DNA of 48,589 nt from a virus: the IMG/VR virus record IMGVR_UViG_3300009181_000008, positions 1 through 48,589 of that record, one strand, 5' to 3'. A model generated the notes under the pieces. It was not told the origin of the DNA. It ran no database searches and worked only from the letters and a program-made list of their open reading frames with translations. Positions 19,101-48,589 of the stretch are shown here, piece by piece. Each line of letters starts with the position of its first letter. The stretch's first letter is position 1. Made by a program: the position numbers and the translations under genes.

Positions 19101-22100
19101 GGTCTGATCGAAAGGAATGACCTGCTCATCGCCACTGCTAAGAGAGTTTTAACCGTCAGAAATGCCTTAAGGAGCATTATGAAGGCGAACTCAAGCACTG
19201 GCCACTTCGCTAGCATGTTGCCCGGCAATAACCCCAACCTCGGAGGCGCGTCGGGCGTTCATGAGATAGGGCATTCTCGCTTTAGCCAATCGCTTGCCGT
19301 TTCCGGCTTATCCATCGAGGGCTTTGCTGATCCTCTCGGGTTTAGTGGTGCCATGTATACTGGAACAAGAGACTATGCTCTCACTCCTCTAGGCTTCCCG
19401 ATAACGCTGCTTGAAGAAATCCAATCCGACTTTGCGCAAAAAATAGAAGGAGTCGGCGTAGATAAGGACATGTCTATCTACCTTCCATTGAGCCCTGATG
19501 AAGAGGCCTCTCTGGCTGCCGTTCCTGAGTATGAAAGAATGGTATCTAAGGCTGCAGAACTTCGGGCTCTTGCCGAGTCGGTCACCGGGTTTGTCACGGA
19601 TAAGCTCGTGGTCTCGATGCTTACGCCCCGGGGCAACAGGAGCAGCGGCGTCGGATCGTCTGCTGCGTTAAACTTATTCCTAAAGCTTCAATTAGACCAG
19701 ACGGATATACTTAACAGGGGTATATTGGCTGTTCAGGTGCCCGGCTTGTTGAGGGGAACGGGGCGCGAGGTGAAAGCTCCAGAGTCACTTAAAGCAAGCT
19801 TGAGGGGCAAGTTCCAGCTCGAGCTGCCGGACAAGGTTCCGTCTATGGACTTTGACCATGAATTGATAGCCAAGATTGCAGAATACCAGACGTCAGGGTT
19901 CTCCAATGTTCCAGAAGCGGTTGCAGACTCCATAGCTAAAAGGCTCGCCGATAACATTCGGTCTACGGATCAGTGGAATAATTCTTTTGGCCGCAAGATA
20001 GGCGGACAGGGGACTGACGCCGCCATTGCTGCTGTGTCGAGAGAACCGCACCGTGCCATGGAAATGATAAGGCAGAACCTACTCCAGATCATGACTCGCG
20101 GTCAGGAGCAGATGCAAGAACAGCATGCCGTGCTTAAAAGCATAGCCACAGGCATGAGAAGCGCGGGAGACACCTCGGACCTGTCTGCGTTCGTGGAAGC
20201 CCTTGCGGACATAGCCGAAAGGCAGAAAGGTGACCTTGGTGCTTCGATAGGCTGCGAGCTTGCAGGAATGGCTATACTCGACGAGTCGGTTGCGATGAAC
20301 GTCGCAGCCTACGCCCGTGGCGAATATAAGTTCGACTACGAAACCATAGCTAGGTCTGCCTTAGAACGGATAAGGGCTAGGTATACGGACACCAAGACGT
20401 TCACCGGCAAGACTATCCTTTTAGCGTTCGAGGAGATGCTTAGGACTCCTGCCGAGGAGCGCCCATTCATATCTATTGCGGACGGCTTAAGCGAACCAAA
20501 GGAAGTAAGCGCTGTGTCAGATATGATTACTGACCTAGCTTCTACGTTCAGGACCAATGAGGGCACCTCACTTGAGATAGCCGAGAGGCTGATGACTGAT
20601 CCGGCGAACACCCTCCCGTCGACAATTCAGGACAACCTTGTTAGCATTGCTGAGTTCTTTGGCACCGGTGGTAACCTCTATGTCCAAAACGCCAACTCTG
20701 GTGGCATACTGTCCGAGGGCGGCAAGAAAACATACAGGGTATTCAGGTCTCTAGAAGAAGGCGGACACGAAAAGATGGCGTACCAGCTCTTGGCTCACCT
20801 CTTGGAGCGCGCAGGTGAAGGGCACGACCTGTCTAAAATTAATGCAGTCGAGGCTCAGTATCACAGGCACAACGGGTCGCTAGCTGGAGACTTCGTGAAG
20901 CAAGTTATTGAAGTCTATGCAGGCATGTCAAAGAGGGCGGAATATGCCATCGAGGCGCAGGCCATCGAGGCGCAGGCCAGAGAATTGAAAAAGACCATTC
21001 CGGAAGTGGGAAGCTATAGGGATGATCGAATGGTTCCGGCCACCTTGCCGTACGCTGGAGAAAACTCCTACAAGTCCATGCAGTTGCAGATGTCTATCGT
21101 GGACTCGATGAACCGAGGCCAGCGAGGCGTCGGAATAATGGATGCAAGCTGGCAGCTAACCCGTGGTCATGGACTTAGTGAGTCAGCAACGGTCGGCCTA
21201 GGTATTGGAAAAAATAAAAGGATAGCTTGGATGCCCTGTGTCGATGGGCCGGGCTCTGCGATACAAACCGTGCTTGCCTGCTATGAAAGGATGACCGGTC
21301 TCAATCCTAACGAGGCCGGAGGCATAAATAATGGGTTTTTATTCAGGCTTGGCCAAATGGATGAAGCAGAGGTAAGGGCGGTAATGTCTGGAACGAATTT
21401 CGATCACGATGGCTCAAGTAAGAACCTGCATGGGCATATAATGCAGACCTTAGAGCTCATGCTTGATAGGATTAGGACGAACATATCGGAGGACTCTTAT
21501 CGCGCTATAGCTAAGGACCTTCTCGAGTTTGCGTCAGTAAAAGGAGTTAAGGACTTTAACTTCTCCATCAAGAAGGGGGCTGAACTTGGAGCAGCCTTTA
21601 TGGAGGGCAAGAAAAACCCAAATCACCCCAACTGGGGCGATGCCACAAAGTTTATAGCCAATGGAATGAAGGATGTGTCGCTTGCCACCATGCCGGCGCA
21701 CACCGGCTCTGGAGGATGGGGGTACATCACCAACTATGGCCTGCCGCAGCATAAGGCCGACATCATGATGGCTGGAACCAGTAAGCTATTCAGGTCTCAG
21801 TACTCGCTTGATGCGTTTGAGCGCCCAGCAATAACCGTTGAGGGCACAACGATGTCCATGTTTGACACTAAGAGTGGCAAGCTCATCGCCTCTGTAGACG
21901 TTAGGGATCCTGCACAGGTTAAACTGTTCCGTGAAAGATATCTGCAATCGTCTAAATACGTTGGTGGCAACTGGATGGTCCGAGCGTTCATTAAGGAGTG
22001 GGCGCCGGTTGGCGGTTATGTAGACCTTACTGTTGCCGGCTCTACTGCCCAAAATAAACCCGCCCTCGGCAACTTTGCTTGGGATGAGTCTGTTCATTCC

Positions 22101-23339
22101 TCTGCCACAATGGATCAGATTGTCGCCGCCGTGCGAAGGAAGTATGGAACCGGGGAGGCAACCATCCTTGATAACTCAGCACAGCTTAACACGCCCGAAT
22201 ACGCTGCTTCAACTAAGGCGATCGAGGCAGCTGGCGGCGTGACTTGGGGTGGAGAAATAGCTCCCCCTAAAAAGTTCACCATGGAAGGGCAGAGTGAAGC
22301 CATGAGGCAGCCTACTTCTACAAACGTGAACCCGCTTGCGCCGGGAATTATGAGAGATGGCAGGTCGTCATATGGCACCACTGGAAACCCGTCACACATT
22401 CGAGCGCTGGTCGCCGCCTTCGCAGGCTTTGCCCGAGACCCGGGCGCCGATGAAGTCGCGGCGTTTGCAGCCAGAATGAGAGACCCGGTCGTTACTACCC
22501 TCGTGCACACGCCAGAAGGCAGGACTAAAGAGATGGACGCTCAGTTCAGGCGCAAGATGTCTGAAGGCGTGTTCCTGCTTATGGCAGCCGGTGAGCGTCC
22601 TCGTGACGGAAAGATATCCCAGACTGGCTTCTCGTCTTTGATGTCCACCGTAAGGAACAGAGAAAACCAGCCGATAGTATATGCCAAGAACTTGCTCGTC
22701 GACAGGCTTGAGCTGCCGCCCCTAGACAAGGCCCCTTTCATGGCACCAAGGGACCCTCATGATATGCGTAGGCGAGTATTCGACAGGAGAATGGCTGTTG
22801 AACTAATGAAGGCAGGATACCCTGATACTCAGATTGGAGCCCATCTTGGCATCAGTCGCGAAGCTATATTTAATTTAAGGAGTAACGCAGGCATAGCCCC
22901 GCTTCCTGAGGGAGGCGTGAAAGGCCATGCAAACACCCCCAAAGGGCGTCCGTCGCCTAAAAAACTAAAACCTGAGGAAATTCAGCGCAGGATGGATCTA
23001 GTTCTTGAAGCGTTTAAAAAGACCGGCTACGCGCGCCCAGAGTTTGTAAGGCAGGGGCTACATCAAGTGACAGGCAGGCAGAATGGCAGGGGAATGGATG
23101 CGCTGCGCGCTTATGCTGAAAGCAAGGGCGTGGAACTGCCCAAGCGAGGGCGCCGGACAAAAGATCAAATGGCTGAAATTGCAGCTAAACGAAACGCATC
23201 CAAAGCGGCCGGAAGCAACCCGATGCCTAGTGATAGCTTGAGTGATCCTCAGCATCCTAATCAGATCAGACCCACCGAAAGCAGCCCCAAGAGCAATATG
23301 GCCAAACTAGAAAACACGGAGCGTGAAATGAATGAGTAA
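4197..23339 (+). CDS. Giant multidomain virion-associated polyvalent protein (6,380 aa)
   Basis: A single uninterrupted frame of 19,143 bases, about 39% of the genome, with an estimated mass near 690 kDa. Domains seen in order: an acidic, disordered N-terminus (1-60); an Ala/Gly-rich, membrane-active-looking region (225-475) with a glycine-zipper stretch at 440-475; a zincin-like segment with H623-E-I-S-H627 and a downstream Glu pair at 754-755; a second zincin-like segment with the sequence LFALYPGM near 2215 and H2300-E-V-Q-H2304; another HExxH at 3501; a segment with EEIQSD at 5073-5078 and IAWMP near 5675; and a C-terminal helix-turn-helix (6199-6232) followed by a basic GRP-containing tail. 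The second zincin and the EIQSD segments resemble domains of large polyvalent phage proteins. Only four Cys occur, none before residue 4597. The start overlaps the upstream stop (TAATG). A packaged, ejected effector is inferred. Confidence 0.85.
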   Translation: MDQPTSSSPENENPNADLDVQRTRDMMAFLGQGGTRVAPVAPKFEFEDAAPQETSSFNPNAMTGKDYFEFFQQNRSARFNHDAQGRQAFKLMAEHMDQRKVDFLGSAEMAVGQMVEELGGITDAPLHPGKFAASTAESAAKGIRDMYGIFAQSEDPQSAFFKIKSWAMRVAGKDDGDIDSQMRQFHEAREFNNRSYEHMEGKSSIVGDMLPEGYGHMFTKLVEPKFANALSYAVLDIPEIVLSSGMSTPGTAIKLAALRAPKAAAKGGVFAAWSARSAERLSNYAQVMGGKALEATGAVVKAPFKAIYGASQSAAQLGGDFAGNAVRNLATAEVIEAGAELVGGTVVRHPAMGFLRSFGLEAFGELAQTAGADIADRALGRVSVKMDTLGATTLERLAAGTAKGADVMSREAQLLAKGINASVGWAPSLSGQALKTMFRDGIIGAGLGWANSGEEGAGMGLGMGIGWGGLSGSVRHLHAYTHYTHQDERVVQNFNQFVAPSFARIHGATAGEMARRFGDHVQSFGDLRTSAIEMSHLSTLVAHETGLFGEGNVMFFFGNSAAEFDKMLLDSNVRPDDFATLSKEFLNLQDNPAMMSEVTLNNKAVKRIIAINSDAYRPTSARHEISHLLLRSVAEANGDMDHVYFADPFTGQKRSAGRVFSPRYLSTIYGASKDLGMMPDVAWSAALQQYVAQIEHNQSYAEADQAAVYARAQAFGVEAKDHIAKFRDLYNSGTLDMRDLDHIAIVKTMTLVAEEAYAYYQSATSNVFAVDKYVKDPAARNMLRAWAENRAASNNSRILSDLELAGVELRGKLINPDGSAKLFDDQGNPAMETMVYDDGKVLRLKAMDSWIEQTMKSAYSRGEVHVSSMDPMRQAALAKTSGKEHLFTAISNGGMKLKTKQELDELSLDQSKKIIGAIGQLPESVRPLVQVGADGTQRLILEQMNGEGLEALRASGAFTDREFNELIGMIEIAKRGREGVPAFNVMNTTLLAHSMQVRRGAAVFRLRGDDVPVTYRTFVPLSVEVYLKTHDVNGDPLRTPKGGVVIHSLDVAAENRRLTKMFKRGDVQQLFSGNFDDFVRVYQDYVINQSGLNGPRVPSAELFKPRFGSDAERVRDIMYETFGGRKPKDAPFINTPSNGYMGGADDTNRPFYTMRFDTMADTRLHPTSWNARSNLPLFPYVPSAYEGITRNMMVSGFQKLPLTGGASFLRDRNGFEIYQGKKGFNLFDMYGIKVGTFSSIKSAIAKAAKDIGKYDEADILPAEEGHTVEINGKTEELLFPSTPVFMLHGVRDRAHSILSANAKVPDFSVSEQVLSSIVGFEYKLDQAGRLVDSSGTVVPDQAAAARKGFTVKAGQAIPGAGFKETVRIGIGQASVTTDFEALAQNEAVRVSPTWLRALHAMPGGKDIADRQMAIRLAIAEHVSRGFRNGELQMPSVNSRQTSNNFAIIADAMPVDGADFQRIDSEIDKWLLAQKADINKIADQIDGVFGISANGTSAIFPLHDVGSGNYVPDRVIHAAHGVVITPSLMAYAKAYGPAKAAAAGGAGTIELIRAHAEMTGEGEQSVVIQANNVREFQALIGNGGIPNEWLQHHETMTPGFTAAFQALLPIMDQAKNPTSAAASGSRGKVSMPLAHPDVKLHIKKYIDDTRFAASQDGPYRKTITSEVGKDGRLKRNEAGKKEGVLFTALLNISDPRMENFLSHESIYRAIAVASDESNYAGLPAGTRASDMAKLQLLIHGMQSDDNVFHHEIKTTAEREIGIRGTRELGGGPVPVGGSYGIYSGAPSLSPMSGALELKNGGKISIQHNVNHQTPRRFREVMESRGSMIKDGVLTIIAGEDKTKAMTQSIANASYILSTSSDSRMRGASGTAKVTVSPTKMTGLTDGAQVPGDTFYNPGDRAISPMAFGLAIKTKSSSGIPNMVRAAHDAGYTWLGKHMSKADVSDLRPFVEQIAQIAISTSGDWRIADPADIAPIMAQLTERLEQVMPHEKVVFAEDIIVGMALSLAGTQPKQSGLNFKPVRGGGVNIVPKPAANLGRADAIAGMSKIAQAIHQADYIDGSVKSATNIKEKWLDYSKRSRDFLKSGAIELKTKEVPAGTSWQTDSVFMLAGKRAIERLDADRKDLLKDLGLLGRAKDVLGREFDYLEISDSRAKLLTDRFGGRAAMMAADGMTDPDAAIKAAVAEFAAGRFDGPAGLALVANANSNELALGQIFSHDELFALYPGMKSSKVTFELGAFGATYYGEGSFGRIEIGIGMLLRDELAAYDAEVGISSEYVGSYVEFKGTGGLSYDENLRRTIIHEVQHMVYHAEGWSQIWDWNLTDNDTGKFDVAEMRFAGPAALTRIEQMLGGTELTPVTDSFGPNIDAVFVSKLKHMQVETSRILSFDTASKTIRKADDDTATQAIERIIHAPLAAKMVRDVIPETIRWTQALDGTFHMLASSLRSQKDKLSIEAYNGAMEKLNSSADALSKFTSVITVLESELKAGTKTAHAASFELLNEIDQNRHFLMLEDPSWSALYAGMGGGFEHQLRTMAFRDKANLWRNLLEAHEDLGGRGGKMPGDWAQWHMVKIANAMGRMMYFAQPDELTARVTEARAGMSEQQLSKRNRYMPKADKEIAAAYNVGRYIAEVATTGAMRPFDDNLFMIGGAKGSEQFDANMFGGGTPNTFKLGMRMLARSSLLSHYINIRDVGSAMKVLTFSSRGWRIGVDGKPEFVFSMGRLQGADQWGRDTATAANQGISRIVNNAIDFYRDFEDPETLPDRAMALTAQPGEETRVAELNSVSEETVVKQNALEDLIRANRFVNPTDYDDNNGPGFGLLAGLSKDGVSVKIEDVAKALGATIAIDSLVTMQSPVLNAIHEGKVPLLMTGGGIADYLRIAGVDENGLELAKISQIDRQFAGIKLSAGELAELVAVLHDVPFESVLEAPLGAKAIAVQTAMADTQLPNKLRELNRGWLPSSTMATRMSTWVNEVLSGGQSQANTPLKSLLLANTTQRAGSGVMFLQSMLETHITLSWNGNEYLSKMLSADRFARIREKFLSHDTREMVFKQVQTLASSASSLDQRRNSERVLLAFSSRVEKLLMELTPLAEKVAERIIKSAEGDGSYAIELLGDIYGEAIKEAMKDVSAYSASDKDVSISEPGFAIRRGMDVRIGAGAQDVHALGNSYEKVAANSLGMTSGRANNSVMLPAFGMIGGATEAFSRTASGRARYLGMAGMSTAPVSGLDTFTGSFSKTTAREFVRGANLSAGPNYTGLSPDANGMMIGINMFGEPYTLTTNHNSDGAISITPEPFFTGIGQDLLNLGSTSRPGNMPNQITRSGLDPAVAAASDAANRLISMAKQLAEVIINQNQAHNLDIVSSAIYEAVSVDEGSSEIRRFVRSDPTIGRAYQLGDLSGDLLKAKALLAVAYEVADRPDMNVGIANFGVSIGFSRDWGYYSQGSSEISRNAGGYRPLSQTSVVRTHVTPEGRVVLTSAFEGLADSRDIRELRVIDAITGSGSVSAHEIAHKPTLGMMADWHASMNLFADNEHEFGVNNFEQAHEADLSVKSMGSRIGRVSEIGLTALKRIPMNHQFSTGFMKEVAYKYGSSWYARNLVETLTGETTMDIVIGRLKASGAGINLAASLESVLNEKQFFGTASKGMAANPDRSAFFQPLARYMWAAAATLGIRHFSDGIKEPHKSILLTMIARGDDTDAIKHFIANTPHVGFREGSVKFGKNTSHLDLSQIHSLAGNMMLKERLIPLLEATGVFRAEDIDLIRKHIDHATAFDPTSTGDIRHSGRVLDGYQRAIGERDVTPGHQTPADALRAFSNYKSGLLTSGMDLGDNGDGTAAVIDIMRGLASLEGRKPRFSMDATEGVKFIFPEQTGVDKAGVTDGFLGSYPASSYYAVASDTIGNPDIVANVNRGGRPHALGKGSEMNLDGTNRYYVRNAGASVIGYDPVTPEQGGALAAMMGVPVFSDFKYSVTPGLMTVTPDRTGRSKLSSSVMRTAMVESIIAELRKENAKTIDIAPAGHHLSYIGADPMMLASATQSEAIKDITATWNNKGLKGINRTLQSGYRHGNSMGDVVNASVVTHSLYSDQGGPYGQNAPSHGLGQNAGPDQLGEFAPKKGYAWQRLPDGRIMLNVTGDHLGYKLDHKQITKRRPGYGFSLIEGLGWDQQNGVLIPMRINAHVGIADMLRTMKHPLAAMYDHTDPAIVGQHIRAAASSNRRNFHETRGNFQPMTGSFSAAGDARLTKGIKDFAFISGYLADNAIDPMVKADAAAQLNGHQSANGYASIILPANATPDDIRSAVLALHMEPVIGLSLSHMSNHSRRYSHLEFTGDNAYSSGRSLPTRNGISPSTEGYRYSFRGSMPGRLPQEVLKGLMDTTMMLSPTLIDDIDVMIGKMSGGESGYFLPDSERILSMNGDTGLSIASMFPGRPDLLRYSWDSKNMHGIKVWKRTIPKGAERYHAHVVQFEAPMQYEAEGGLRIGPKSIAFRTPEEATAFANRVSVSRSGADIAKALAAGDVEVVNGADTPTSPFMPEADVRKGVFMNGHELTAMENSAHFVGDMDTPMDRKSAKTLGAALGSNKHLRFSPGESLMMVGGKSMDELQDLVRCKLNFGSPRGTMEFASKAMNAIIHGALPNTQKLEAMLGEDWFKVMKKAGVSGEEMRQTGLAALFIGAKTTKLTRMDVAEFMAATIPMLRRHDLSTSNDLKLSGILAMGGGLEGGDSPHKLNGGYLMPYMPDSVLQSRINQHQAISGIIGSLERLELTHRALLEAGNVNSESTLNAIAATNKVLLSYARKIGMDEEAIANKGASELATLIQTRIETLAKKTHTGGDTFGNLNYTGLENVRLTLNDHISNIRALQDVSSMVGGVMPELVLPLRQLHSEFMMGSPAMELPTRFATGAPYGWSAGTVNNGVEDLTGQVISGHYNKYWGNYTSGYQHVQTQAAVRFGDKYATEQIDGYLTQLRATNVAELRKDTPDKGLIERNDLLIATAKRVLTVRNALRSIMKANSSTGHFASMLPGNNPNLGGASGVHEIGHSRFSQSLAVSGLSIEGFADPLGFSGAMYTGTRDYALTPLGFPITLLEEIQSDFAQKIEGVGVDKDMSIYLPLSPDEEASLAAVPEYERMVSKAAELRALAESVTGFVTDKLVVSMLTPRGNRSSGVGSSAALNLFLKLQLDQTDILNRGILAVQVPGLLRGTGREVKAPESLKASLRGKFQLELPDKVPSMDFDHELIAKIAEYQTSGFSNVPEAVADSIAKRLADNIRSTDQWNNSFGRKIGGQGTDAAIAAVSREPHRAMEMIRQNLLQIMTRGQEQMQEQHAVLKSIATGMRSAGDTSDLSAFVEALADIAERQKGDLGASIGCELAGMAILDESVAMNVAAYARGEYKFDYETIARSALERIRARYTDTKTFTGKTILLAFEEMLRTPAEERPFISIADGLSEPKEVSAVSDMITDLASTFRTNEGTSLEIAERLMTDPANTLPSTIQDNLVSIAEFFGTGGNLYVQNANSGGILSEGGKKTYRVFRSLEEGGHEKMAYQLLAHLLERAGEGHDLSKINAVEAQYHRHNGSLAGDFVKQVIEVYAGMSKRAEYAIEAQAIEAQARELKKTIPEVGSYRDDRMVPATLPYAGENSYKSMQLQMSIVDSMNRGQRGVGIMDASWQLTRGHGLSESATVGLGIGKNKRIAWMPCVDGPGSAIQTVLACYERMTGLNPNEAGGINNGFLFRLGQMDEAEVRAVMSGTNFDHDGSSKNLHGHIMQTLELMLDRIRTNISEDSYRAIAKDLLEFASVKGVKDFNFSIKKGAELGAAFMEGKKNPNHPNWGDATKFIANGMKDVSLATMPAHTGSGGWGYITNYGLPQHKADIMMAGTSKLFRSQYSLDAFERPAITVEGTTMSMFDTKSGKLIASVDVRDPAQVKLFRERYLQSSKYVGGNWMVRAFIKEWAPVGGYVDLTVAGSTAQNKPALGNFAWDESVHSSATMDQIVAAVRRKYGTGEATILDNSAQLNTPEYAASTKAIEAAGGVTWGGEIAPPKKFTMEGQSEAMRQPTSTNVNPLAPGIMRDGRSSYGTTGNPSHIRALVAAFAGFARDPGADEVAAFAARMRDPVVTTLVHTPEGRTKEMDAQFRRKMSEGVFLLMAAGERPRDGKISQTGFSSLMSTVRNRENQPIVYAKNLLVDRLELPPLDKAPFMAPRDPHDMRRRVFDRRMAVELMKAGYPDTQIGAHLGISREAIFNLRSNAGIAPLPEGGVKGHANTPKGRPSPKKLKPEEIQRRMDLVLEAFKKTGYARPEFVRQGLHQVTGRQNGRGMDALRAYAESKGVELPKRGRRTKDQMAEIAAKRNASKAAGSNPMPSDSLSDPQHPNQIRPTESSPKSNMAKLENTEREMNE
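5520..5617 (+). other. Glycine-zipper segment of the giant protein
   Basis: Residues about 442-473 alternate Gly with Ala, Met, Ile, Leu and Trp (for example GMGLGMGIGWGG). Such sequences are typical of membrane-inserting helices in ejection proteins and toxins. It ends a 250-residue Ala-rich region and precedes the first zincin-like domain. A pore or membrane-anchor role is inference. Confidence 0.5.
6060..6464 (+). other. Zincin-like metallopeptidase segment 1 of the giant protein
   Basis: The frame encodes ARHEISHLLL (HEISH at residues 623-627). About 128 residues later comes VAEEAYAYY (E754, E755). HExxH followed by a distal Glu in a helical context is the gluzincin arrangement of zinc ligands. 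The spacing is longer than in thermolysin (about 20 residues), so the third ligand is uncertain. It could be a protease that cuts the giant protein itself or a host target; neither is shown by the sequence. Confidence 0.5.
10818..11140 (+). other. Large-polyvalent-protein zincin-like domain (segment 2)
   Basis: Residues about 2208-2313 read as a typical block of phage polyproteins: a helix ending LFALYPGM, a beta-rich GSFGRIEIGIG stretch, then IIHEVQHMVYHAEGW. In the established family this pattern (ELF..YP, then HE.QH....EGF) marks a large polyvalent protein-associated domain with a zincin-like active site (HEVQH at 2300-2304). Its biochemical activity in phages is not well established. Confidence 0.65.
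19260..19442 (+). other. EIQSD-type polyvalent protein-associated domain
   Basis: The region encodes HEIGHSRFSQ (from residue 5022), then a TGTRDYAL segment, then LLEEIQSDFAQ (EEIQSD at 5073-5078). The order [G/A]HxRF, then E[IV]QSD[WF]xQ, then further on IAW[TM]P (here near 5675) matches a domain common in very large phage polyproteins. The HEIGH here overlaps the xHxRF element and is probably not a zinc site. Confidence 0.6.
20946..20978 (+). repeat. 15-bp tandem duplication inside the giant gene
   Basis: The 15-base unit GCCATCGAGGCGCAG occurs twice in tandem (20946-20960 and 20961-20975) and is followed by GCC, encoding two perfect copies of A-I-E-A-Q. The in-frame, error-free duplication looks recent. 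Confidence 0.9.
22791..23160 (+). other. C-terminal helix-turn-helix and basic tail of the giant protein
   Basis: Residues 6199-6232 (AVELMKAGYPDTQIGAHLGI and on to SREAIFNLRSNAG) have the pattern of a homeodomain-like HTH: a helix, a Gly-containing turn, then a recognition helix starting SREAI. They are followed by a basic segment with PKGRPSPKK (about 6248), which resembles an AT-hook core, and later by KRGRRTK. DNA binding is predicted from the pattern; target and role are unknown. Confidence 0.6.
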
Positions 23340-27741: not shown

Positions 27742-28164
27742 TTACCTAAGTCGTTGATATGGAACGTGATATTCTTGGACCTTTTTTTGGAAATTAGCCG
27801 GTGTGCACCAGATCCGGCCGCCCATTTTGACATATCCGGTCACTCCGTAGCGGTAACCGGCGTATACATCAGCAAAGGTAAGCTCCCTATTCAGCTTAGC
27901 CCTGAGCCTGATGTATGTGATTTCCAGATACGCGGCGCAAGCACGACGAGCTACCCACGCATTGTGTGCGTCAGTCCAAGGGCACTGCGACACCTCGCTC
28001 CATGCGTCCTTGGAAAGTCCATACGCGCCACGAGCTACGATGAGGCCGTGACTTGCGTGGATATATTCATCCGGGTTCTTGACGCCGCCGGTCTCAAAGT
28101 GCTTAACCCATTCTGTTTGATCAGCGCGAGCCGCGAAGCCAAGCAACAGCATGAGCCACTTCAT
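27742..28164 (-). CDS. Exported lysozyme/transglycosylase-like protein (140 aa), putative endolysin
   Basis: Begins with a short signal sequence or signal anchor (MKWLMLLLGFAARA, then DQ). The mature part resembles small lysozyme-like transglycosylases: HFETGG with a candidate catalytic Glu (E24), then RGAYGLSKDAW (45-55), equivalent to the GAYQ(I/F)S..W block, then a run of helices with W-A-RRAC-AYLEI. It would cleave peptidoglycan in the periplasm, possibly as a SAR-type endolysin. The start overlaps the stop of the helicase-loader gene (ATGA). An endolysin in the replication operon, far from and opposite to the holin-like gene, is unusual. The family is assigned from motifs only. Confidence 0.55.
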   Translation of the reverse strand: MKWLMLLLGFAARADQTEWVKHFETGGVKNPDEYIHASHGLIVARGAYGLSKDAWSEVSQCPWTDAHNAWVARRACAAYLEITYIRLRAKLNRELTFADVYAGYRYGVTGYVKMGGRIWCTPANFQKKVQEYHVPYQRLR

Positions 28165-28877
28165 AGCAGCTCAAGCGTGTCGTTGCCCGGCGCCACTCCA
28201 ACGGTGGTGAATAGGTCTCTGTCCTTAAGCCTAGCTAACAGGGCTGAGCCAAGCTCCTTGTCATGGAAGCGCTCGGCAAGTGTCATGCCGGTATGGTTGG
28301 TGGTGATGATGGTCGGCTTCATGTTCTGTGAGCGCTGGTCAATGAGAGCGAACAATACAGAGGCCATGCGCTCCGTCATCTTCTCCTTGCCGAGGTCGTC
28401 AAGCCCAAGCACATCAACGTCGATGAGGCCCTTCATAACCTGATCCCACTTCTCCTTGCCCCAAGCGCCCACCATCTCGGCCTCTAGCTCAAACATAGTA
28501 AGCACCTTCACGCCCATGCCCTCGGCCTTAAGCCTATTACGGATATACCACAGGCACCGGGTCTTGCCCTTGCGTGTGGCTCCATGAATGAGCAGAGACT
28601 TCCTCACCCGCCCCGGGTTCCACGACGTCGCGATGTCTGCTAGTGCCTTGGGCAGCCGGTTAGGATCAGTGTCCTTGAATAGCTCCGGGCAGCCGTCGGT
28701 TGCGCTTGGCCTAGGCTTAGAGCCCTCCTCCTTGGCACGAATAGCCTCGGCGGCAATTACGCACTCGTCCTTGCAGCAATACACTGCTGCCGGGAACTGA
28801 AACAGCTTCCCGTTCCACTCCAAGCTGTGAGGCGGAATGTCTGCCCCGCAATTACGGCATGCCCTATGTTCGTTCAT
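28161..28877 (-). CDS. DnaC-like helicase loader ATPase (238 aa)
   Basis: Counting from the ATG at 28877: an N-terminal zinc-binding module with Cys7, Cys10, Cys34/35 and Cys39; then a linker; then an AAA+ core with Walker A GATRKGKT (99-106), Walker B VLGLDD (156-161), a sensor-1 PTIITTNHTG block and a C-terminal LLARLKDRD with the likely arginine finger. This is the layout of DnaC/IstB-type loaders, which place the replicative helicase on origin DNA. It lies two genes downstream of the lambda-O-like initiator. The GTG at 28895 is an alternative start; I prefer the ATG, which overlaps the upstream gene by 14 bases. Confidence 0.85.
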   Translation of the reverse strand: MNEHRACRNCGADIPPHSLEWNGKLFQFPAAVYCCKDECVIAAEAIRAKEEGSKPRPSATDGCPELFKDTDPNRLPKALADIATSWNPGRVRKSLLIHGATRKGKTRCLWYIRNRLKAEGMGVKVLTMFELEAEMVGAWGKEKWDQVMKGLIDVDVLGLDDLGKEKMTERMASVLFALIDQRSQNMKPTIITTNHTGMTLAERFHDKELGSALLARLKDRDLFTTVGVAPGNDTLELL

Positions 28878-29235
28878 GGCGGCGGTTAACCCCACGGTTC
28901 ACGAGGAGTACGTCAATGTCGTCGTCGATCATCTCAACTGTGACTACGATGCGGTTGTCTTTAATCATGTGTGTGATCTCTAATTTTCGGAGAGACTTAG
29001 AATATGCCCTCATGTCCTTGTGCAGCTTCTCAACCGCGCGCTCGACGAGGAGCTTTGATACGCCGATAAGCCTGTTGTCTAACTCGGCTTGAGCGAAGTC
29101 GATATCTTCGATCATCTTGCCTAGGCACTTAGCTAGTGCGTGGGAGTCCACGCCGACGTTGCGAGCTGCCTTACTTGTGGTCCTGTTCTTCCGGCCAGTT
29201 GAGCCGTCGCCGGGCTTATAGTACTTTCGCGTCAT
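28864..29235 (-). CDS. Hypothetical early protein (123 aa)
   Basis: Family not recognised. The N-terminal 25 residues are basic and Gly/Ser/Thr-rich, probably disordered and nucleic-acid binding. The remainder is helical with a beta-like segment (NRIVVTVEMIDDDIDVLLV). It lies between the 59-aa gene (20-base overlap at its start) and the helicase loader (14-base overlap at its end), so all three are translationally coupled and presumably needed together in replication. No enzymatic motif was seen. Confidence 0.7.
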   Translation of the reverse strand: MTRKYYKPGDGSTGRKNRTTSKAARNVGVDSHALAKCLGKMIEDIDFAQAELDNRLIGVSKLLVERAVEKLHKDMRAYSKSLRKLEITHMIKDNRIVVTVEMIDDDIDVLLVNRGVNRRHERT

Positions 29236-29395
29236 GGGCTAAGAGCTTATCGATGGTCTTTTGGCTGTAGGCTTTAAGCTTACCGTCGATAGACAGGTTC
29301 CAATAGTTGATGTTACCCTTCTTGCGTGGCTTGAGCAGCCGGGCAACGGCTCCACATGGAAGGATGTAGTATTTGGTATCGTTTATTTGTTTCAT
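29216..29395 (-). CDS. Small hypothetical early protein (59 aa)
   Basis: A short frame starting MKQINDTKYYILPCGAVARL, three bases after the stop of the initiator gene and overlapping the next gene by 20 bases. It fills an otherwise empty gap in a tightly packed operon. The sequence is basic, with a GAVARLLKPRKKGN stretch and a predicted C-terminal helix (SQKTIDKLLAHDAK). It resembles a small DNA-binding module but I do not recognise it. Confidence 0.6.
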   Translation of the reverse strand: MKQINDTKYYILPCGAVARLLKPRKKGNINYWNLSIDGKLKAYSQKTIDKLLAHDAKVL

Positions 29396-29398
29396 GGG

Positions 29399-30061
29399 TC
29401 AGAAGCCTTTGGCGTGATCAGCGTCAGTCTGGGCTGGCTTGCTTATGCGGACATAGCCGTGCTGCCCTGCCGGTGCCTTCACATGGATGGATTGCCACTC
29501 ATTGCGAGTGGATACCTCAAGCGCCTCCTTGGCGGCCTTAGGATCGAAGCCAGATAGGTATTTAAGCTGCTTGTGCATCCAAGGGATGCTGGTCGTCCAC
29601 TTGCGGGAACGCCTTAGCTTGATGTACTCAATCCATGCATCGGAAACGCCCTGCTCCAGCTTCCCGGCAGCAACAGCGACCTCTGTCATCTGTATCTTAG
29701 TCTTATCGTTTATATCACTTGTATCTATTGGGTGAAGTTTCCTTCGCCCCTCCCCTGAAGGATTTTTCACCCCCCCGGTGAAGTTTTCTTCACCCTCTAG
29801 GCATAGCGTGACTATGTCCCAGAGGACGCCCTTGGCGTCGCGCGTGATCAGGCCGGCCTCCAGAAGCTCCCCAATTAGCATCTGGACGTTACGGTCAGTG
29901 CAATGCAGGTAAGCCCCAAGGGTAGCCCTAGAGGCATAGCACCCACGCTCATTGCTGAGTATGTGCACAATGCTCCAGAGGAACTTGGCGTTGGTGCTGA
30001 TGTTCGGGTTACTGAATACCTTGGCCGGTATCCAGACACCCTTGAATGGCAGGTCGCTCAC
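29399..30061 (-). CDS. Lambda-O-like replication initiator / replisome organiser (220 aa)
   Basis: Residues 1-90 form a winged helix-turn-helix (NISTNAKFLWSIVHIL, then CYASRATLGAYL, then RNVQMLIGELLEAGLI), as in phage initiators and replisome organisers. Residues 90-125 are a flexible linker whose DNA carries three phased iterons (29731-29794). The C-terminal domain (AWIEYIKLRRSRKW...AAKEALEVSTRNEWQSIHV) resembles the helicase-loader-contacting region of such proteins. It starts with GTG, overlapping the upstream stop (GTGA). With the DnaC-like loader it forms an O/P-type module that would direct host replication machinery to the intragenic origin. Confidence 0.75.
   Translation of the reverse strand: MSDLPFKGVWIPAKVFSNPNISTNAKFLWSIVHILSNERGCYASRATLGAYLHCTDRNVQMLIGELLEAGLITRDAKGVLWDIVTLCLEGEENFTGGVKNPSGEGRRKLHPIDTSDINDKTKIQMTEVAVAAGKLEQGVSDAWIEYIKLRRSRKWTTSIPWMHKQLKYLSGFDPKAAKEALEVSTRNEWQSIHVKAPAGQHGYVRISKPAQTDADHAKGF
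29690..29730. other. AT-rich stretch beside the iterons, probable unwinding element
   Basis: About 40 bases of clearly raised A+T (for example TATCGTTTATATCACTTGTA) directly abut the iteron array on the side downstream in the initiator gene, within coding sequence. Lambda ori has the same order: iterons, then an AT-rich region. Its function is inferred from this arrangement. Confidence 0.55.
29731..29794. repeat. Three 18-bp palindromic iterons at exact 23-bp spacing, putative replication origin
   Basis: Plus-strand units are GGTGAAGTTTCCTTCGCC (29731-29748), CCTGAAGGATTTTTCACC (29754-29771) and GGTGAAGTTTTCTTCACC (29777-29794). The third is a perfect palindrome around TTTT; the first differs from it at 2 of 18 positions and the second at 5 of 18. 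The spacers are five C-rich bases. Because 23 is not a multiple of three, the encoded peptides differ, so the repetition serves DNA rather than protein. They lie inside the initiator gene, as lambda's 18-bp iterons lie inside O. Confidence 0.8.
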
Positions 30062-30909
30062 AGTGTAGATACGCCGAAGTAGACGTCATCTCTCATCGTG
30101 GGATTGTTGCGCTGATTATGGATACGGATGAGTCCACGGATCAGAGAGGTGCGGCCGAAGGCAAGCGAGTCTTCATTGAAAGTATAGGCGCGCGTGGCAC
30201 CCGTGTCCTTGCCGGACACAAGATATAGCACCCCGACAACCTTGTCTCTCATCATGCCCTCAGCGAGCATAACGTAGGTGAAGGCCTGAAGTGGCCACTC
30301 GGAGTCACGAGCCTTACGCCTGACGGCCTCGAAGGAGCTAGTTTGTGTGGTCTTATAATCCACAAGCACAGTGTTGTCCTCAAGTATGTGGAGCATGTCA
30401 ATCTGGCCCTTAATTGGGATCGTGAACAGAAGCTTATTGTCGCGAAACACCTCTGCGTCTGCGATGATGGAGAGCTCCCTACGACGATTGCCCGTGCCCG
30501 GCGTAAAGGTTTTCTCAGAGGCCTTGGCGCCGGCCGTGAGAGACTCAGCCTTATCCCACAGGTGCTCCTGCACCATGGTTTTACCGGAGTCGTGTGCTAG
30601 TGATAGCATAGACTCGAACTGGGCCTTACCCTCTTTGGTGCGCCTATCCATCTTGGGCACACGCATATATTTGCTCGTGTCATCAGCCATGATGGCGTGG
30701 AAGACAGAGCCAATTAGCATGTCGTCAGACGGATCATCGTGCTCGGCCGCAAGCTTAACGGCCATATTATAGCCGTGCTCGTTGACGAGCTTGATGAAGC
30801 TCTGGTTGATGGCTGGATAGTCACGGTATATCTCGTTGGAGATCTCCGTGGCCTTGGTCAGCCTGATGTCGGTGGTGGGTGTTACTACTTCGGATATGAT
30901 GTCGGTCAT
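30058..30909 (-). CDS. RecE/Cas4-like PD-(D/E)XK exonuclease (283 aa)
   Basis: The N-terminal part has YRDYPAINQSFIKLV (28-42) and LIGSVFHAIM with His71, as in the exodeoxyribonuclease VIII C-terminal family. The catalytic core is IKGQIDMLHI (D171), then NTVLVDYKTTQ (D184-Y-K186), followed by a helix with the usual Gln and Tyr (LQAFTYVML). Such enzymes resect double-strand ends, giving single strands for an annealing protein; here the partner is the ERF gene at 25307-26038. The gene ends in a GTGA overlap with the initiator gene. Its ATG has a C/A-rich leader. Confidence 0.85.
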   Translation of the reverse strand: MTDIISEVVTPTTDIRLTKATEISNEIYRDYPAINQSFIKLVNEHGYNMAVKLAAEHDDPSDDMLIGSVFHAIMADDTSKYMRVPKMDRRTKEGKAQFESMLSLAHDSGKTMVQEHLWDKAESLTAGAKASEKTFTPGTGNRRRELSIIADAEVFRDNKLLFTIPIKGQIDMLHILEDNTVLVDYKTTQTSSFEAVRRKARDSEWPLQAFTYVMLAEGMMRDKVVGVLYLVSGKDTGATRAYTFNEDSLAFGRTSLIRGLIRIHNQRNNPTMRDDVYFGVSTL

Positions 30910-35263: not shown

Positions 35264-36118
35264 TTGGGAGCCAACTTTACATTCACAGGCCAGACGAATA
35301 ATCGAGCTGGCGGCGGCAGATGGTGGGATGACAATAGTCAGAATTCCTCCGGCCGCAATTACGTAGAAAAGCCCCAAGGGCCAACCGCTTCACCAATTCC
35401 CAAGCTGGCGCCCGAGCCGGCCGTAAAAAGGCCCGACCCTGAGCCGGAAGATACTAGCCCGGACACGGCCGAGGCCATGTACAAGCTTTTCCACGCCGAC
35501 GAGATATCGTTAAGGGCAAAGCAAATGGCGGAAGAGGCGACAGCAAACGCCAGATACAGGCAAGCCTTAGAAAATCAGCGGAAATCAATAGACTCGGTGG
35601 CTGGGCTCAGGGGCGCCTTCAATTCGCCGATCAACCAGCTAGGAGGCATACAGTCTCCGATCAATAAGCTGGCAGGATACCAGTCCCCGGTAAACCAGCT
35701 TGGTGGATTTCAATCCCCGATAAACGACTTATATAGCGGAAGCACCGTCCCGATATCTCGGATAGGAGATACCGTTGAGCAGCACATGCAGATTGCGGAA
35801 AATAGCGGCAAAAGGCAGCATAGTTACGCCATAGGAAAAAGGTACCGCGCTGGTAAAAATAAAAACAATGGCGTCCTTGCGGACGCCAGACGCATCGCGA
35901 TGGGCGACCATATGCCCGGAATGGGGATGTTTGTCGTTGGGCCGGCGGACTATAGCCAGTCTTTCACATTTAAAGGATCTCACCCGATGACAGGAGTTTT
36001 CACCGCCGGGAAAGCGGGACATCCAGCCGGAGTTGGTGGAGAGGATCCGATGAAGAGGTCTATGAATAGGTTATTCTGGTCAAGCTTCCCCGGGGGATCA
36101 GGAGGCTACTCTCCGTGA
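35264..36118 (+). CDS. Hypothetical protein with four 10-residue repeats, before the large terminase (284 aa)
   Basis: Family not recognised. TTG is used as start (MGANFTFTGQTNN), immediately after the preceding stop; no in-frame ATG occurs in the first 70 codons. Residues 1-75 are Pro/Gly/Asn-rich and disordered, 75-115 are helical, and 119-158 hold four copies of a 10-residue unit with core SPINQLGG. The C-terminal half is Gly/Met/Phe-rich. It overlaps the terminase start by four bases (GTGA). A head or packaging accessory protein is possible from position. Confidence 0.6.
   Translation: MGANFTFTGQTNNRAGGGRWWDDNSQNSSGRNYVEKPQGPTASPIPKLAPEPAVKRPDPEPEDTSPDTAEAMYKLFHADEISLRAKQMAEEATANARYRQALENQRKSIDSVAGLRGAFNSPINQLGGIQSPINKLAGYQSPVNQLGGFQSPINDLYSGSTVPISRIGDTVEQHMQIAENSGKRQHSYAIGKRYRAGKNKNNGVLADARRIAMGDHMPGMGMFVVGPADYSQSFTFKGSHPMTGVFTAGKAGHPAGVGGEDPMKRSMNRLFWSSFPGGSGGYSP
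35618..35737 (+). repeat. Four tandem 30-bp (10-residue) repeats
   Basis: Units start at 35618, 35648, 35678 and 35708 and encode FNSPINQLGG, IQSPINKLAG, YQSPVNQLGG and FQSPINDLYS. The DNA has diverged more than the protein, so the repeat is kept by selection on the peptide. Collagen-like or solenoid structure is not indicated; it may be a series of short binding motifs. Confidence 0.85.
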
Positions 36119-37755
36119 GCTTTGAGCAGATCAACATAGGGAGCAAGGAGTCGCCGTTGATGGTGACTAAGCACCCAATAATACACACCCCATCTAGGGA
36201 TGACGTTGTTGATCTTGCGCGCGAGATGGGAGCTGAAGCTACGCTTGAGATACTAAAGCGGCGCGAGGAGAAGATAAAAGCAGAAGAACTAGACCCTTAC
36301 AGGCACGGCTACGAGCCGGATCATTGGCGCGAAGCCGATCAGCTGCTTATGTCTGGAAATGAGCTACTCATAATGGGAGGCAACCGAGCCGGAAAGACCG
36401 AGTACGCCGCCAAGCGAATAATGCAGCTACTGTGCAGCAGGCCTAATTCTAGGGTCTGGTGCCTACACACGACGTCGCAAACATCCATCCAGATGCAGCA
36501 GGCTGTGATCTGGAAGTATATGCCACCTGAGTACAAGAGCGCGAAAAAAACTAAGGTCACAAACATCCAGTACTCACAGAAAAATGGGTTTACCGACGCC
36601 ACGTTTGTTCTCCCAAACAGGTCGCAGATATTCTTCATGAACTACGGTCAGGAGAAGAAGGTCATTGAAGGCGGAGAACCTGACATGATCTGGTGCGATG
36701 AGCTTGTGCCGCCTGACTGGGTTGAAACTTTACGATACCGATTGGTAACAAGGTCAGGTAAAATGATACTCACCTTCACGCCCATCACTGGCTACACGCC
36801 GGTCGTTAAGGAGTATGTCGCCGGGTGCCGGTTTAAAAAGACCCTTAAGGCAGACCTGCTACCAGACACTCAAAATGTCCCAAACATACCCAAGGGACAT
36901 ATGCCGTACACCGCCGCGTGTATAAAAGGGTCCGCCAATGTTATCTGGTTCCACTCGATACTTAACAGCTACTCCCCCTTTGAACAAATCAAGCTAGCCC
37001 TCCGAGGTCGAGGGCCGTACGAAGTTAAAATACGAGCATACGGATGGGCCGAGTCTCTGTCGGGATCTCAGTTCCCTAGGTTCGGAGAGCCCAACATCAT
37101 ACCAGACGACAAGGTACCTAAAGAGGGGACGAATTACATGGCGGTCGACCCGGCCGGAGCCAGAAACTGGTTCATGTGCTGGATGCGGGTAGACAAGCAG
37201 GGCAACAGGTATGTCTATCGGGAATGGCCAGACATAAGCATGGGCGAATGGGCTCTCAATGGCGAGAAGCCAGACGGTAAGCCCGGCCCAGCGCAACGGC
37301 AGGGCGCCGGCATGGGTGTGATAGAAATGAAAGAGCACATCAGGTCATTTGAAACTGAGGAAGAAATCTTTGAGCGATACATTGACCCAAGGGCCGGCAA
37401 CTCCACCGCGATAAATAAAGAGGGCGGAGTCACCCTTATCCAACTTTTAGAAGACGAGCCAAACCCAATGTGGTTCACCCCTGCAGCTGGCTTAAGGCTG
37501 GAAGAAGGGATTGGCATCTTGAATGACTGGTTCTCCTACGACCAGAATAACCCGATTAGCGCCGTCAATCAGCCCAAGCTCTACATAGCTGAAAGCTGCA
37601 TTAACACCATATGGTGCCTGAGGGAGTGGACGGGCTTAGATGGCGAAAAGGGATCAAGCAAGGACCCGATAGATGTCCTGCGATACCTCGCCGTCATGCA
37701 GCCAAACTACGCCGACGATAACTCGTACAAAGCCCTAGGCGGGGGAAGCTATTAA
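36115..37755 (+). CDS. terL: Terminase large subunit (546 aa)
   Basis: The DNA-packaging motor. ATPase: Walker A GGNRAGKT (88-95) and Walker B DMIWCDE (190-196), with the coupling stretch LTFTPITG near 219-226. Nuclease: first acidic strand MAVDPAG (Asp345), second acid in RYIDPRAG (near 424), third in DPIDVLRY close to the C-terminus. Length fits the family. It starts with GTG in a GTGA overlap with the preceding gene. It would dock on the portal encoded one gene downstream. The small subunit is not its direct neighbour (see 33529-34149). Confidence 0.95.
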   Translation: MSFEQINIGSKESPLMVTKHPIIHTPSRDDVVDLAREMGAEATLEILKRREEKIKAEELDPYRHGYEPDHWREADQLLMSGNELLIMGGNRAGKTEYAAKRIMQLLCSRPNSRVWCLHTTSQTSIQMQQAVIWKYMPPEYKSAKKTKVTNIQYSQKNGFTDATFVLPNRSQIFFMNYGQEKKVIEGGEPDMIWCDELVPPDWVETLRYRLVTRSGKMILTFTPITGYTPVVKEYVAGCRFKKTLKADLLPDTQNVPNIPKGHMPYTAACIKGSANVIWFHSILNSYSPFEQIKLALRGRGPYEVKIRAYGWAESLSGSQFPRFGEPNIIPDDKVPKEGTNYMAVDPAGARNWFMCWMRVDKQGNRYVYREWPDISMGEWALNGEKPDGKPGPAQRQGAGMGVIEMKEHIRSFETEEEIFERYIDPRAGNSTAINKEGGVTLIQLLEDEPNPMWFTPAAGLRLEEGIGILNDWFSYDQNNPISAVNQPKLYIAESCINTIWCLREWTGLDGEKGSSKDPIDVLRYLAVMQPNYADDNSYKALGGGSY

Positions 37756-37757
37756 CC

Positions 37758-37964
37758 ATGATTACCGTGCCTGCGGGAACCCCGCCCCTGCTGCGCCTCA
37801 CAGAGGCGAACCAGATATTTAACCTTAGCAAGTCTACCCTTCTTCGCCTTCGGCGCAAAGGGGTGCTTAAAACGTACAGGACATCCGGAGGGCAATTCAT
37901 GTTCTACCGGGACGACCTGATCGATCATATTTCCAAAAACACCAATGGCGCAAATCAAGTATAA
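37758..37964 (+). CDS. Excisionase/MerR-like small HTH protein (68 aa)
   Basis: Residues 9-60 follow the excisionase-type winged HTH pattern: LLRLTEANQIFNLSKSTLLR, then RKGVLKTYRTSGGQFMFYRDDL, with the wing between the two strands. Such proteins bind DNA as architectural factors or regulators. It starts two bases after the terminase stop and overlaps the portal start by 20 bases, so it is coupled to both. No integrase exists in this genome, so an excisionase role is unlikely. Late-gene regulation or a packaging-linked role are alternatives. Confidence 0.75.
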   Translation: MITVPAGTPPLLRLTEANQIFNLSKSTLLRLRRKGVLKTYRTSGGQFMFYRDDLIDHISKNTNGANQV

Positions 37965-40191
37965 AGACCACGACGCTTCGCGAGATCAGCTCGCCTACCA
38001 TAAGCGCGTACCAGATATTCAGTTCATGCTGAATGAGTATCAGCGCTCCGCCTACCATGGAACGATGGTATCGAAGATGGTCTACGCCGATGACGTTCGT
38101 TTGGCTAGGTGGCCGGGGCAGACTGACGATGGCAAAAAGCACAGCTACGCCCGTCCCGACGGCGACCCAGCGTTCCCTTTTGAGGGTGCGTCGGATGTAC
38201 GCGTCCGATTGGTTGATAGGCTTATAAACGAGCAGAAGGCCATGCTTATGCATGCCTTTAAAGCATGCACCCTTAAGGTTGGCGGCACTGAGATAATGGA
38301 CACTATGGCCGCCGCATCGGCAACTAACCTAATGCGTTGGCTCATTGAGACTAAGATGAAGCTGGAGATGCACCGCGAGGCCGAGCTTCTAGCTGATTAC
38401 CATATCCACTACGGCTGGGCTATCGTCCAGATTGGTTGGGATCGTCAGATGGGCAAGCGCACCCAGACCATAAGCATGCAGGAGCTAGCTCAGGCGGCTG
38501 AAGCGTCTAAGGCCGGCGGCCAAGAGTCGGGCATGATAGGCTCACTCGTCGCTGCAATTGGAGACCCGCGCAAAGAAGATTACGCCCTTCAACTCATCCA
38601 GCAGCTGCTTCCGAATATGGGAGACCCGCAGCTCCGCAAATGCATCCAAGACCTTCGCGAAAAAGGCGAGGGCATTGTCGAGGAGCAATACATAGCTAGA
38701 AACCTGCCCGTCGTGACAGCCCTTAAGCCCTACGATGAAGTGTGCTTCCCCCCTGAGACGTCGGACTTGCAGAAGGCTCGCATTATATTCCGCCGGCAAT
38801 ACGTCACGGAGGTCGAGCTAAGGTCTATGGCCGAAGTGGATGGCTGGAAGTCGGACTTTGTCGAAGCGGCAAGCAGGACCATGGGCAACCATTACTACTT
38901 CAATGACCCCAATCTAGTGCCAACCACCACGATGTTAAACTCCAACATCCAGCGCGGCGACAACCTGATCGAGATCGTGTGGGCCTATTACCGTCAGCTA
39001 GACAAGGACAACGTCCCAGCCATATACTACACCGTGTTCTGCCCTCAGGTAGGGTCAGACATGTACGCGAAGCAGGAGATGCTGAACTACGCACATAATG
39101 ACTATCCCTTCATCGACATACGCTACGAGCGAAGCCGACGTCAGGTAACAGAGTCGAGGGGCATCCCCGAGCTGTGCAAGACGGAGCAGGATGAAATTAA
39201 GGCTCAGCATGACGCAATCAGGGATAGGACCGCTATAGAGGTGCTTCCGCCCGTCAAGGTCGTTAAGCGCATCGGCGCCCTTAACAGGATAGCTCCCGGA
39301 CAAGTCCTGCCTGTCACCAACAAGGATGACTACACTTGGCTAGAGCCCCCAGCAGGTCGAGCTGAGTACGCATTTCAAGTCATTGAGCAGATCGAGAAAA
39401 ACCTTGGAAACTACTTCGGCTTCCAAGTCGGAGAAAAGCCAATCGACCCAACGAAGATACAGATGATCCAGCAACTGCGGGTCGACAACTGGCTCATGTT
39501 CTGGACTAGGGCGTACACCCAGATGTTCTCTCTGTGCCTTCAGTTTATGCCAGAGGAGGAGATAATACGCATCACCGGCTCCCCGTTGAAGCAAGGCATG
39601 TCAGACATCCACGCCCAGTACGACCTTAACGTCAGGTTCGACATCCGCGACGCAGACCCGGACTTCGTTCGCGAGAAGCTCAAGTCTATCATCGAGACTG
39701 TTGTTCCTCTGGATGTATCCGGAGTCATTGACCGAGATAAGCTGGTCAAGCTGGTCATTGAGTCCATAAGCCCTGATGCCGCGCGCGAGCTCGTCATCGA
39801 TAAGGCCACCGCATCACAGAAGCTGTATAAGGACGTCACCAGCGATATAGCTCTCATGATGCTTGGCAATGAAGCTCAGTACGTAGAAAACGACCCACAG
39901 GCCTCATCTAAGCTGCAGTTCGCTCAGGAAATCCTACAGAAGAACCCGAAAGCCCAGCAGGCCGCCGGCGGAGACAGGATATTCCAGATATTGCTGGAGA
40001 ACTACATGAAGCAGCTTCAGTTCTCCGTGGACCAAGAGAAGAACAAGCAGATAGGTCGAGTCGGCGTATCGCCTGCGTCCGAAAAGATCCAAGAGGAGTT
40101 CGGTAAGGCCGCTGAAGAAGCGCAACAGCAGCAGGCAGCCCCCGAGCAGGCTCCTCCACAAATGCCCGGCCCAACCGGAATGCAGTTTTAA
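37945..40191 (+). CDS. Portal protein (748 aa)
   Basis: Large podovirus-type portal. Evidence: position after the terminase and before scaffold and capsid; length typical for the P22-like size class (700-750); the N-terminal region ending PFEGASDVRVRLVDRLINEQ (about 74-93), characteristic of many phage portals; a long middle with YRQLDKDNVPAIYYTVFCPQ and AQHDAIRDRTAIEVLPPVK; and a C-terminal helical, Gln/Pro-rich tail (QQQQAAPEQAPPQMPG). Twelve copies would form the vertex ring for packaging and ejection. It overlaps the HTH gene by 20 bases. Confidence 0.85.
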   Translation: MAQIKYKDHDASRDQLAYHKRVPDIQFMLNEYQRSAYHGTMVSKMVYADDVRLARWPGQTDDGKKHSYARPDGDPAFPFEGASDVRVRLVDRLINEQKAMLMHAFKACTLKVGGTEIMDTMAAASATNLMRWLIETKMKLEMHREAELLADYHIHYGWAIVQIGWDRQMGKRTQTISMQELAQAAEASKAGGQESGMIGSLVAAIGDPRKEDYALQLIQQLLPNMGDPQLRKCIQDLREKGEGIVEEQYIARNLPVVTALKPYDEVCFPPETSDLQKARIIFRRQYVTEVELRSMAEVDGWKSDFVEAASRTMGNHYYFNDPNLVPTTTMLNSNIQRGDNLIEIVWAYYRQLDKDNVPAIYYTVFCPQVGSDMYAKQEMLNYAHNDYPFIDIRYERSRRQVTESRGIPELCKTEQDEIKAQHDAIRDRTAIEVLPPVKVVKRIGALNRIAPGQVLPVTNKDDYTWLEPPAGRAEYAFQVIEQIEKNLGNYFGFQVGEKPIDPTKIQMIQQLRVDNWLMFWTRAYTQMFSLCLQFMPEEEIIRITGSPLKQGMSDIHAQYDLNVRFDIRDADPDFVREKLKSIIETVVPLDVSGVIDRDKLVKLVIESISPDAARELVIDKATASQKLYKDVTSDIALMMLGNEAQYVENDPQASSKLQFAQEILQKNPKAQQAAGGDRIFQILLENYMKQLQFSVDQEKNKQIGRVGVSPASEKIQEEFGKAAEEAQQQQAAPEQAPPQMPGPTGMQF

Positions 40192-40194
40192 CCT

Positions 40195-40485
40195 ATGAGC
40201 AAACAAAAAGAAGACTGGGTAACTAAATCATTCTCGGCCACCGACCCTAATAGCGTAGAGCTATTTAAAGCCGTGCTAGTCGTCATTGATCAAGGCCTGC
40301 AAATCGAAATGTCGCGCGTGATGTCAGCCAACACTACTGGCGAGGCTCGCATCCATTCGGCTGGAAGGCTTGATGCGTTCAACGACATACTTGTGCACCT
40401 GCAGGACAAAAGGGACTCCGCGCTTAAGCCGAATGCGGGTCAAACCGGGGCTCCGCAGTCCACTAACTTGCGTACCGGCCCGTGA
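40195..40485 (+). CDS. Hypothetical structural-operon protein (96 aa)
   Basis: Family not recognised. It has a helical core (NSVELFKAVLVVIDQGLQIE, then ARIHSAGRLDAFNDILVHLQ) and a disordered Asn/Thr/Gly-rich C-terminus. It starts three bases after the portal stop and is followed by 52 non-coding bases containing a short ACGTC/GACGT inverted repeat. Location between portal and scaffold suggests a small head or connector factor, but nothing in the sequence fixes this. Confidence 0.65.
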   Translation: MSKQKEDWVTKSFSATDPNSVELFKAVLVVIDQGLQIEMSRVMSANTTGEARIHSAGRLDAFNDILVHLQDKRDSALKPNAGQTGAPQSTNLRTGP

Positions 40486-40537
40486 GGACCATTTCTACTT
40501 ACGTCTCTGCGGACGTTAAACGCTGACATCCATCTAC

Positions 40538-41491: not shown

Positions 41492-41503
41492 ACCAAAAAG
41501 ACC

Positions 41504-48467: not shown

Positions 48468-48589
48468 TATGCAACAACTTGGCTCCAACTATAGGGGGGA
48501 TAGCTCTGACACCCTCGGAAACATTATGCAGGGTCAGTACGCCCCGCTTGCTATGCTTAATCAGTTTACTAGCGGCATAACCCAAACCG
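48467..48589. repeat. Terminal direct repeat (contig overlap), right copy
   Basis: Identical to 1-123. Joining the ends at this repeat restores the continuous late operon. Confidence 0.95.
48469..48589 (+). CDS. Partial second copy of the 240-aa ejection protein gene
   Basis: The first 40 codons of the gene at 3-725, cut by the end of the window. It is a result of the contig overlap rather than a gene duplication. Confidence 0.9.
   Translation, partial: MQQLGSNYRGDSSDTLGNIMQGQYAPLAMLNQFTSGITQT

Follow-up and report, generated by a model that had tools for sequence, protein, structure and literature searches.

The stretch analyzed here (hereafter, the window) is the whole of IMG/VR virus record IMGVR_UViG_3300009181_000008, 48,589 nucleotides in length. 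At positions 29399-30061, its minus strand carries an initiator-like gene of 220 codons with a GTG start. Directly upstream of this gene is one for a PD-(D/E)XK exonuclease (30058-30909, minus strand; PDDEXK_1, E=3e-10; exonuclease VIII phrog_412, E=1e-21). Downstream on the same strand come small ORFs of 59 aa (29216-29395) and 123 aa (28864-29235), a DnaC-like helicase loader of 244 aa (28161-28895; IstB_IS21, E=8e-10; phrog_50, E=8e-20) and, at a greater distance, an Erf-like annealing protein. The 59-aa ORF is kept in the closer homologous loci, while the 123-aa ORF has no family above cut-off in Pfam or PHROG. A first-pass annotation made from the sequence had put the DnaC-like loader two genes downstream of the initiator; the loader is indeed present, as the third ORF. 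Within the flanks that were fetched, linkage of the initiator gene to the exonuclease and the DnaC-like loader is kept in most homologous loci.

The record probably represents a complete, circularly assembled genome, because it has a 123-bp direct terminal repeat at window positions 1-123 and 48467-48589. On its plus strand, one open frame of 6380 aa (4197-23339) takes up about 39% of the genome, and neither half of it matches Pfam at E≤0.001. A terminase, an SU10-type portal and an SU10-type major capsid protein (36115-42838, plus strand) form a head module like that of phage SU10. Two coding repeats were also seen on this strand: a 30-bp tandem repeat of about 3.3 copies within a 284-aa ORF (35627-35725) and a 27-bp repeat encoding collagen-like Gly-Pro-Gln in a tail fibre gene (45626-45701).

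Deep within the initiator gene lie three 18-bp units. Read in the gene direction (29690-29794, minus strand), the region runs GGTGAAGAAAACTTCACC-ggggg-GGTGAAAAATCCTTCAGG-ggagg-GGCGAAGGAAACTTCACC and then CAATAGATACAAGTGATATAAACGATAAGACTAAGATACAGAT. Iteron 1 occupies 29777-29794 (plus strand, GGTGAAGTTTTCTTCACC), iteron 2 occupies 29754-29771 (CCTGAAGGATTTTTCACC) and iteron 3 occupies 29731-29748 (GGTGAAGTTTCCTTCGCC). As first described, the units start exactly 23 bp apart, twice, and are separated by 5-base C-rich spacers (plus strand, CCTCC and CCCCC). The perfect palindrome centered on TTTT that had been ascribed to the array holds for the unit at 29777-29794, the sole perfect inverted repeat among the three, with 7-bp arms around TTTT on the plus strand; the other two differ from GGTGAA...TTCACC at one and two positions. 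In the gene direction, iteron 1 is GGTGAAG-AAAA-CTTCACC, with its inverted repeats meeting at an A-tract. TRF called a period-23 repeat at the array, and a triple GAA-N6-TTC at 23-bp spacing occurs once in the 48.6-kb window, compared with 0 of 100 shuffles. Scored as three palindromes, the array reaches 33/36; when the gene was shuffled among synonymous codons 200 times, the highest score was 29/36. The only other site in the window scoring 33/36, at 45.6 kb with a period of 27, was rejected as a collagen-like coding repeat.

Directly adjoining iteron 3, on the 3′ side of the gene, is an AT-rich stretch (29690-29729, minus strand), again as the annotation had it. Its AT content is 72.5%, compared with 46.8% genome-wide, and by duplex stability only one other 40-bp peak of the genome is less stable. 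Given its composition, its stability and its synonymous rate (see below), we presume it to be a DNA unwinding element.

The 220-aa protein is predicted to consist of a winged helix (about residues 11-83), a low-confidence, disordered linker (about 86-121) and a helical C-terminal domain (about 125-187). The model, built from 31 sequences after an earlier one from 16 had been poor, has a mean pLDDT of 72 and a pTM of 0.38, with pLDDT below 50 over most of residues 86-121. Within the codons for this linker (29699-29806, minus strand) fall the array and the greater part of the AT-rich stretch. A putative recognition helix, residues 54-66 (CTDRNVQMLIGEL; codons 29864-29902, minus strand; model helix 56-69), has Arg57 at index 3 and Met61 at index 7, and Arg57 is invariant among 31 relatives. 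HTH_36 (PF13730) matches at 19.7 bits (E=7e-4), below the curated cut-off of 25; the relative L021 scores 24.6 bits. Neither Phage_rep_O (PF04492) nor RepA_N (PF06970) matches at up to E=1, and no PDB sequence was matched by the family profile. PHROG initiation-protein families do match, at E=4e-5 to 3e-3, among them the O-like phrog_678, weakly, at E=4e-5. The description of the gene as O-like is apt for role and layout; for homology to lambda O, the one sign is this weak phrog_678 match. The nearest solved folds are the RepA_N initiators 4pta and 5kbj, although even the best PDB match, 4pta, is weak (E=0.006; TM, 0.30/0.51).

A wider homologue search yielded 36 loci, about 30 of them distinct, down to about 36% identity. 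Nearly all of the roughly 30 distinct homologues have GAA-N6-TTC cores at about 23 bp, and nearly all those with full sequence have three of them, so the search for iterons in homologous initiator genes that the annotation had suggested came out in its favor. Damage to iteron 1 was seen in the L240 group and in L233 and damage to iteron 3 in L242. Comparison of ten homologues gave synonymous difference rates of 0.13 for the array and 0.089 for the AT-rich stretch, as opposed to 0.36 upstream and 0.30 downstream, which puts synonymous change in the two elements 2 to 4 times below that in the rest of the gene. One homologue (L230) translates its first unit in a different frame, as VKEIS instead of GEENF, and retains the DNA motif, with spacings of 22 and 23. 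The low synonymous change and this frame switch together show that selection acts on the DNA rather than on the peptide. One contig of the set, IMGVR_UViG_3300043419_001406 (L225 and L227), has two near-identical copies of the initiator module, one at each end, and is possibly a strain-chimeric assembly.

Since a BLAST search with a synthetic three-iteron array found no match among phage records, wider distribution was assessed by pattern scans and protein similarity. Pairs of GTGAA-N6-TTCAC were found in 72 viral contigs, compared with 10 for a scrambled half-site; their spacings peak at 23 bp (28 pairs) and 24 bp (47 pairs), whereas the scrambled control has no preferred spacing. All nine scanned period-23 representatives with a spanning ORF, including L020 and L021, match HTH_36, two of them below the cut-off; this profile scan left out L058, and a few period-23 matches fall in no ORF. 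One of the proteins with the same iteron type, L015, matches RepA_N besides HTH_36, and four period-24 proteins (L036, L045, L059 and L076) match Phage_rep_O. At L040, L054, L075 and L085, a period-24 pair immediately precedes a CI-like repressor frame. The motif alone is thus no proof of an origin. In thirteen viral contigs (L037 and relatives), a period-24 pair stands just before a conserved start, MTATRRT, and is probably an operator rather than an origin. A scan of genome contigs returned mostly Streptomyces pairs with spanning frames that are not initiator-like, and it was set aside as evidence; the many GGTGAA-N6-TTCACC pairs at period 23-24 across many Streptomyces genomes (L096-L175) are probably sites of a regulator.

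Relatives with other half-sites exist among cultured phages. Cruim01, Skulduggery, HU1, GJ44, phi39:1, Cormatin, Lysinibacillus phage vB_LspM-01 (LspM-01) and Lactobacillus phage c5 all have 21- to 24-bp repeats after a winged helix, although in several of them the repeat score is only modestly above that of 20 synonymous shuffles and in phi39:1 it is not above them. All of these but phi39:1 have an annotated replication initiator with a related winged-helix region, often followed by a helicase loader or helicase gene. They differ from the window in half-site (e.g., TTCGG..CCGAA, GACA..TGTC or TTAAC..GTTAA), and their proteins show about one-third identity to the window protein over the N-terminal part only, or no direct match.

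That brings up the question of how half-site and protein are matched. A rule was derived from initiators grouped with those of phi39:1, Cormatin and c5, a different family from that of the window protein, with the best 80 of roughly 570 to 590 reported relatives considered per scan. In this family, an arginine at index 7 of the putative recognition helix seemed to accompany GAC..GTC palindromes, and the prediction to that effect was fixed before the DNA of the last, held-out scan was examined. Among the relatives listed, at least two GAC..GTC palindromes were present in 12 of 23 held-out clusters with Arg7 and in 0 of 16 without it (Fisher p=0.0004). Stated for Arg7 alone, the rule fits roughly half of the Arg7 proteins and no more, and we gave up that form. 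A post hoc refinement brings in index 3: with discovery and held-out sets pooled, again among the relatives listed, GAC was found in 15 of 18 clusters with both Arg3 and Arg7; of the 10 clusters with Arg3 alone, none had GAC and 8 had two or more GAA..TTC; and those with neither had GAA in 3 of 31. Tree-independent pairs gave 6 for, 0 against and 8 ties (p=0.03), with relatedness only partly controlled.

The window protein, with Arg57 at index 3, Met61 at index 7 and GAA..TTC cores, fits the refined rule. This fit supports, but does not prove, a role of the winged helix in recognizing the iterons within the gene. We imagine that a broad class of phages may share a code in which two helix residues determine the iteron core: GAC..GTC where Arg3 and Arg7 occur together, GAA..TTC where Arg3 occurs without Arg7; from the sequence comparisons so far, we take this generalization to be a real possibility, with the balance tipped slightly against it. 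A literature search, to which subscription journals were mostly closed, found no report of this iteron or of such a recognition code, and the rule is the part of the work that specialists might find new.

The general plan, iterons and a melting stretch inside the initiator gene, is already known. In the lambda record, four 18-bp iterons lie inside O with starts 20, 24 and 23 bp apart, so the annotation's comparison to ori-lambda was well founded. Like the window, lambda has imperfect palindromic iterons in the middle of the initiator gene (in the window, in linker-coding DNA), an AT-rich element on their 3′ side and a loader gene downstream. The differences lie in the half-site (GGTGAA in the window, TCCCTC in lambda), in the initiator, which in the window has no Phage_rep_O match, and in the loader, which is DnaC/IstB-like and follows two small genes, whereas lambda P is directly downstream of O. 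The count of three iterons rather than four, which had been singled out, is correct but hardly remarkable: work cited in PMC7466680, as relayed there, indicates that three suffice for lambda growth, and Stx phages have six (PMC7466680). RepA_N initiators (pSK41, pTZ2162 and PLE) provide the nearest solved folds, and the RepA_N-matching L015 has the same iteron type. RepA_N iterons have inverted repeats that meet at a poly-A tract (PMC7145576), a layout to which iteron 1 conforms. The window protein differs from these initiators in that it lacks a RepA_N match, the fold match is weak and the helicase loader is phage encoded.

Taken together, the comparative evidence (conservation of the array DNA, the L230 frame switch, the adjacent low-stability stretch and the loader linkage) supports the lambda-like origin that the annotation had proposed. 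The array is very probably the iteron part of an in-gene phage replication origin, bound by the product of its own gene. Further support comes from the comparable arrays of the cultured phages, from the co-variation of helix residues and half-sites in held-out initiators of a related family and from the occurrence of the same half-site in Phage_rep_O and RepA_N proteins. Against this reading count the sub-threshold HTH_36 score, the weak fold match, the iterons damaged in the L240 group, L233 and L242, and the palindrome pairs before repressor-like genes. Functionally, this would be a lambda-type origin; by Pfam, its protein belongs to neither Phage_rep_O nor RepA_N.

The palindromes might instead be an operator array, at which a repressor or the initiator binds for control of the operon only, with replication starting elsewhere. 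Initiators can also autoregulate, and the pairs before CI-like frames described above speak for this view. However, in nearly all homologues the array sits deep in the gene, at the linker, and it adjoins DNA that ranks among the genome's least stable; allowing up to two mismatches, a search for extra iterons elsewhere in the window, e.g., at the operon start, gave about as many matches as expected by chance. We therefore consider an operator improbable. It seems more unlikely still that the units act as mRNA hairpins in attenuation or translational coupling: each, as an inverted repeat, could form base pairs in a transcript, but nearly all homologues retain GAA/TTC cores with no compensatory changes, the units keep a 23-bp phasing, and in the related family the half-sites vary together with residues of the helix. 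Linkers in such proteins are often of low complexity, yet a by-product of a repeated peptide is refuted, as the annotation had argued from the period, since at 23 bp the units are read in three frames (GEENFT, VKNPS and RRKLH), no synonymous shuffle scores as high as the array and L230 keeps the DNA rather than the peptide.

If the array is an origin, one can envision how it would work by analogy with the lambda (PMC7466680) and RepA_N (PMC7145576) systems, from which we infer that the protein binds, in what number, that the DNA unwinds and helicase is loaded, and where replication starts. The 220-aa protein would bind the three palindromes via its N-terminal winged helix, probably as a dimer on each iteron. 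At 23 bp, slightly more than two turns of the helix, the phasing could allow the dimers to stack into a compact complex, and strain from this complex may open the AT-rich stretch beside iteron 3, where the DnaC-like protein would load the host DnaB helicase.

For an uncultured phage group, these findings provide a sequence-level candidate for the replication origin along with its likely initiator, and they suggest that the lambda plan reaches beyond lambdoid phages. The co-variation of helix and half-site is a testable rule that could allow origins to be called from metagenomic phage genomes. If it is true, the origins of uncultured phages would be locatable, and their half-sites partly predictable, from protein sequence, and the rule would cover initiators that are at present split among HTH_36, Phage_rep_O and RepA_N.

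Within the phi39:1/c5 family (L260-L339), many initiators also show, past the iterons, an AT-rich repeat (AATAATACAATTAATAATACA...) that is likely a melting element.
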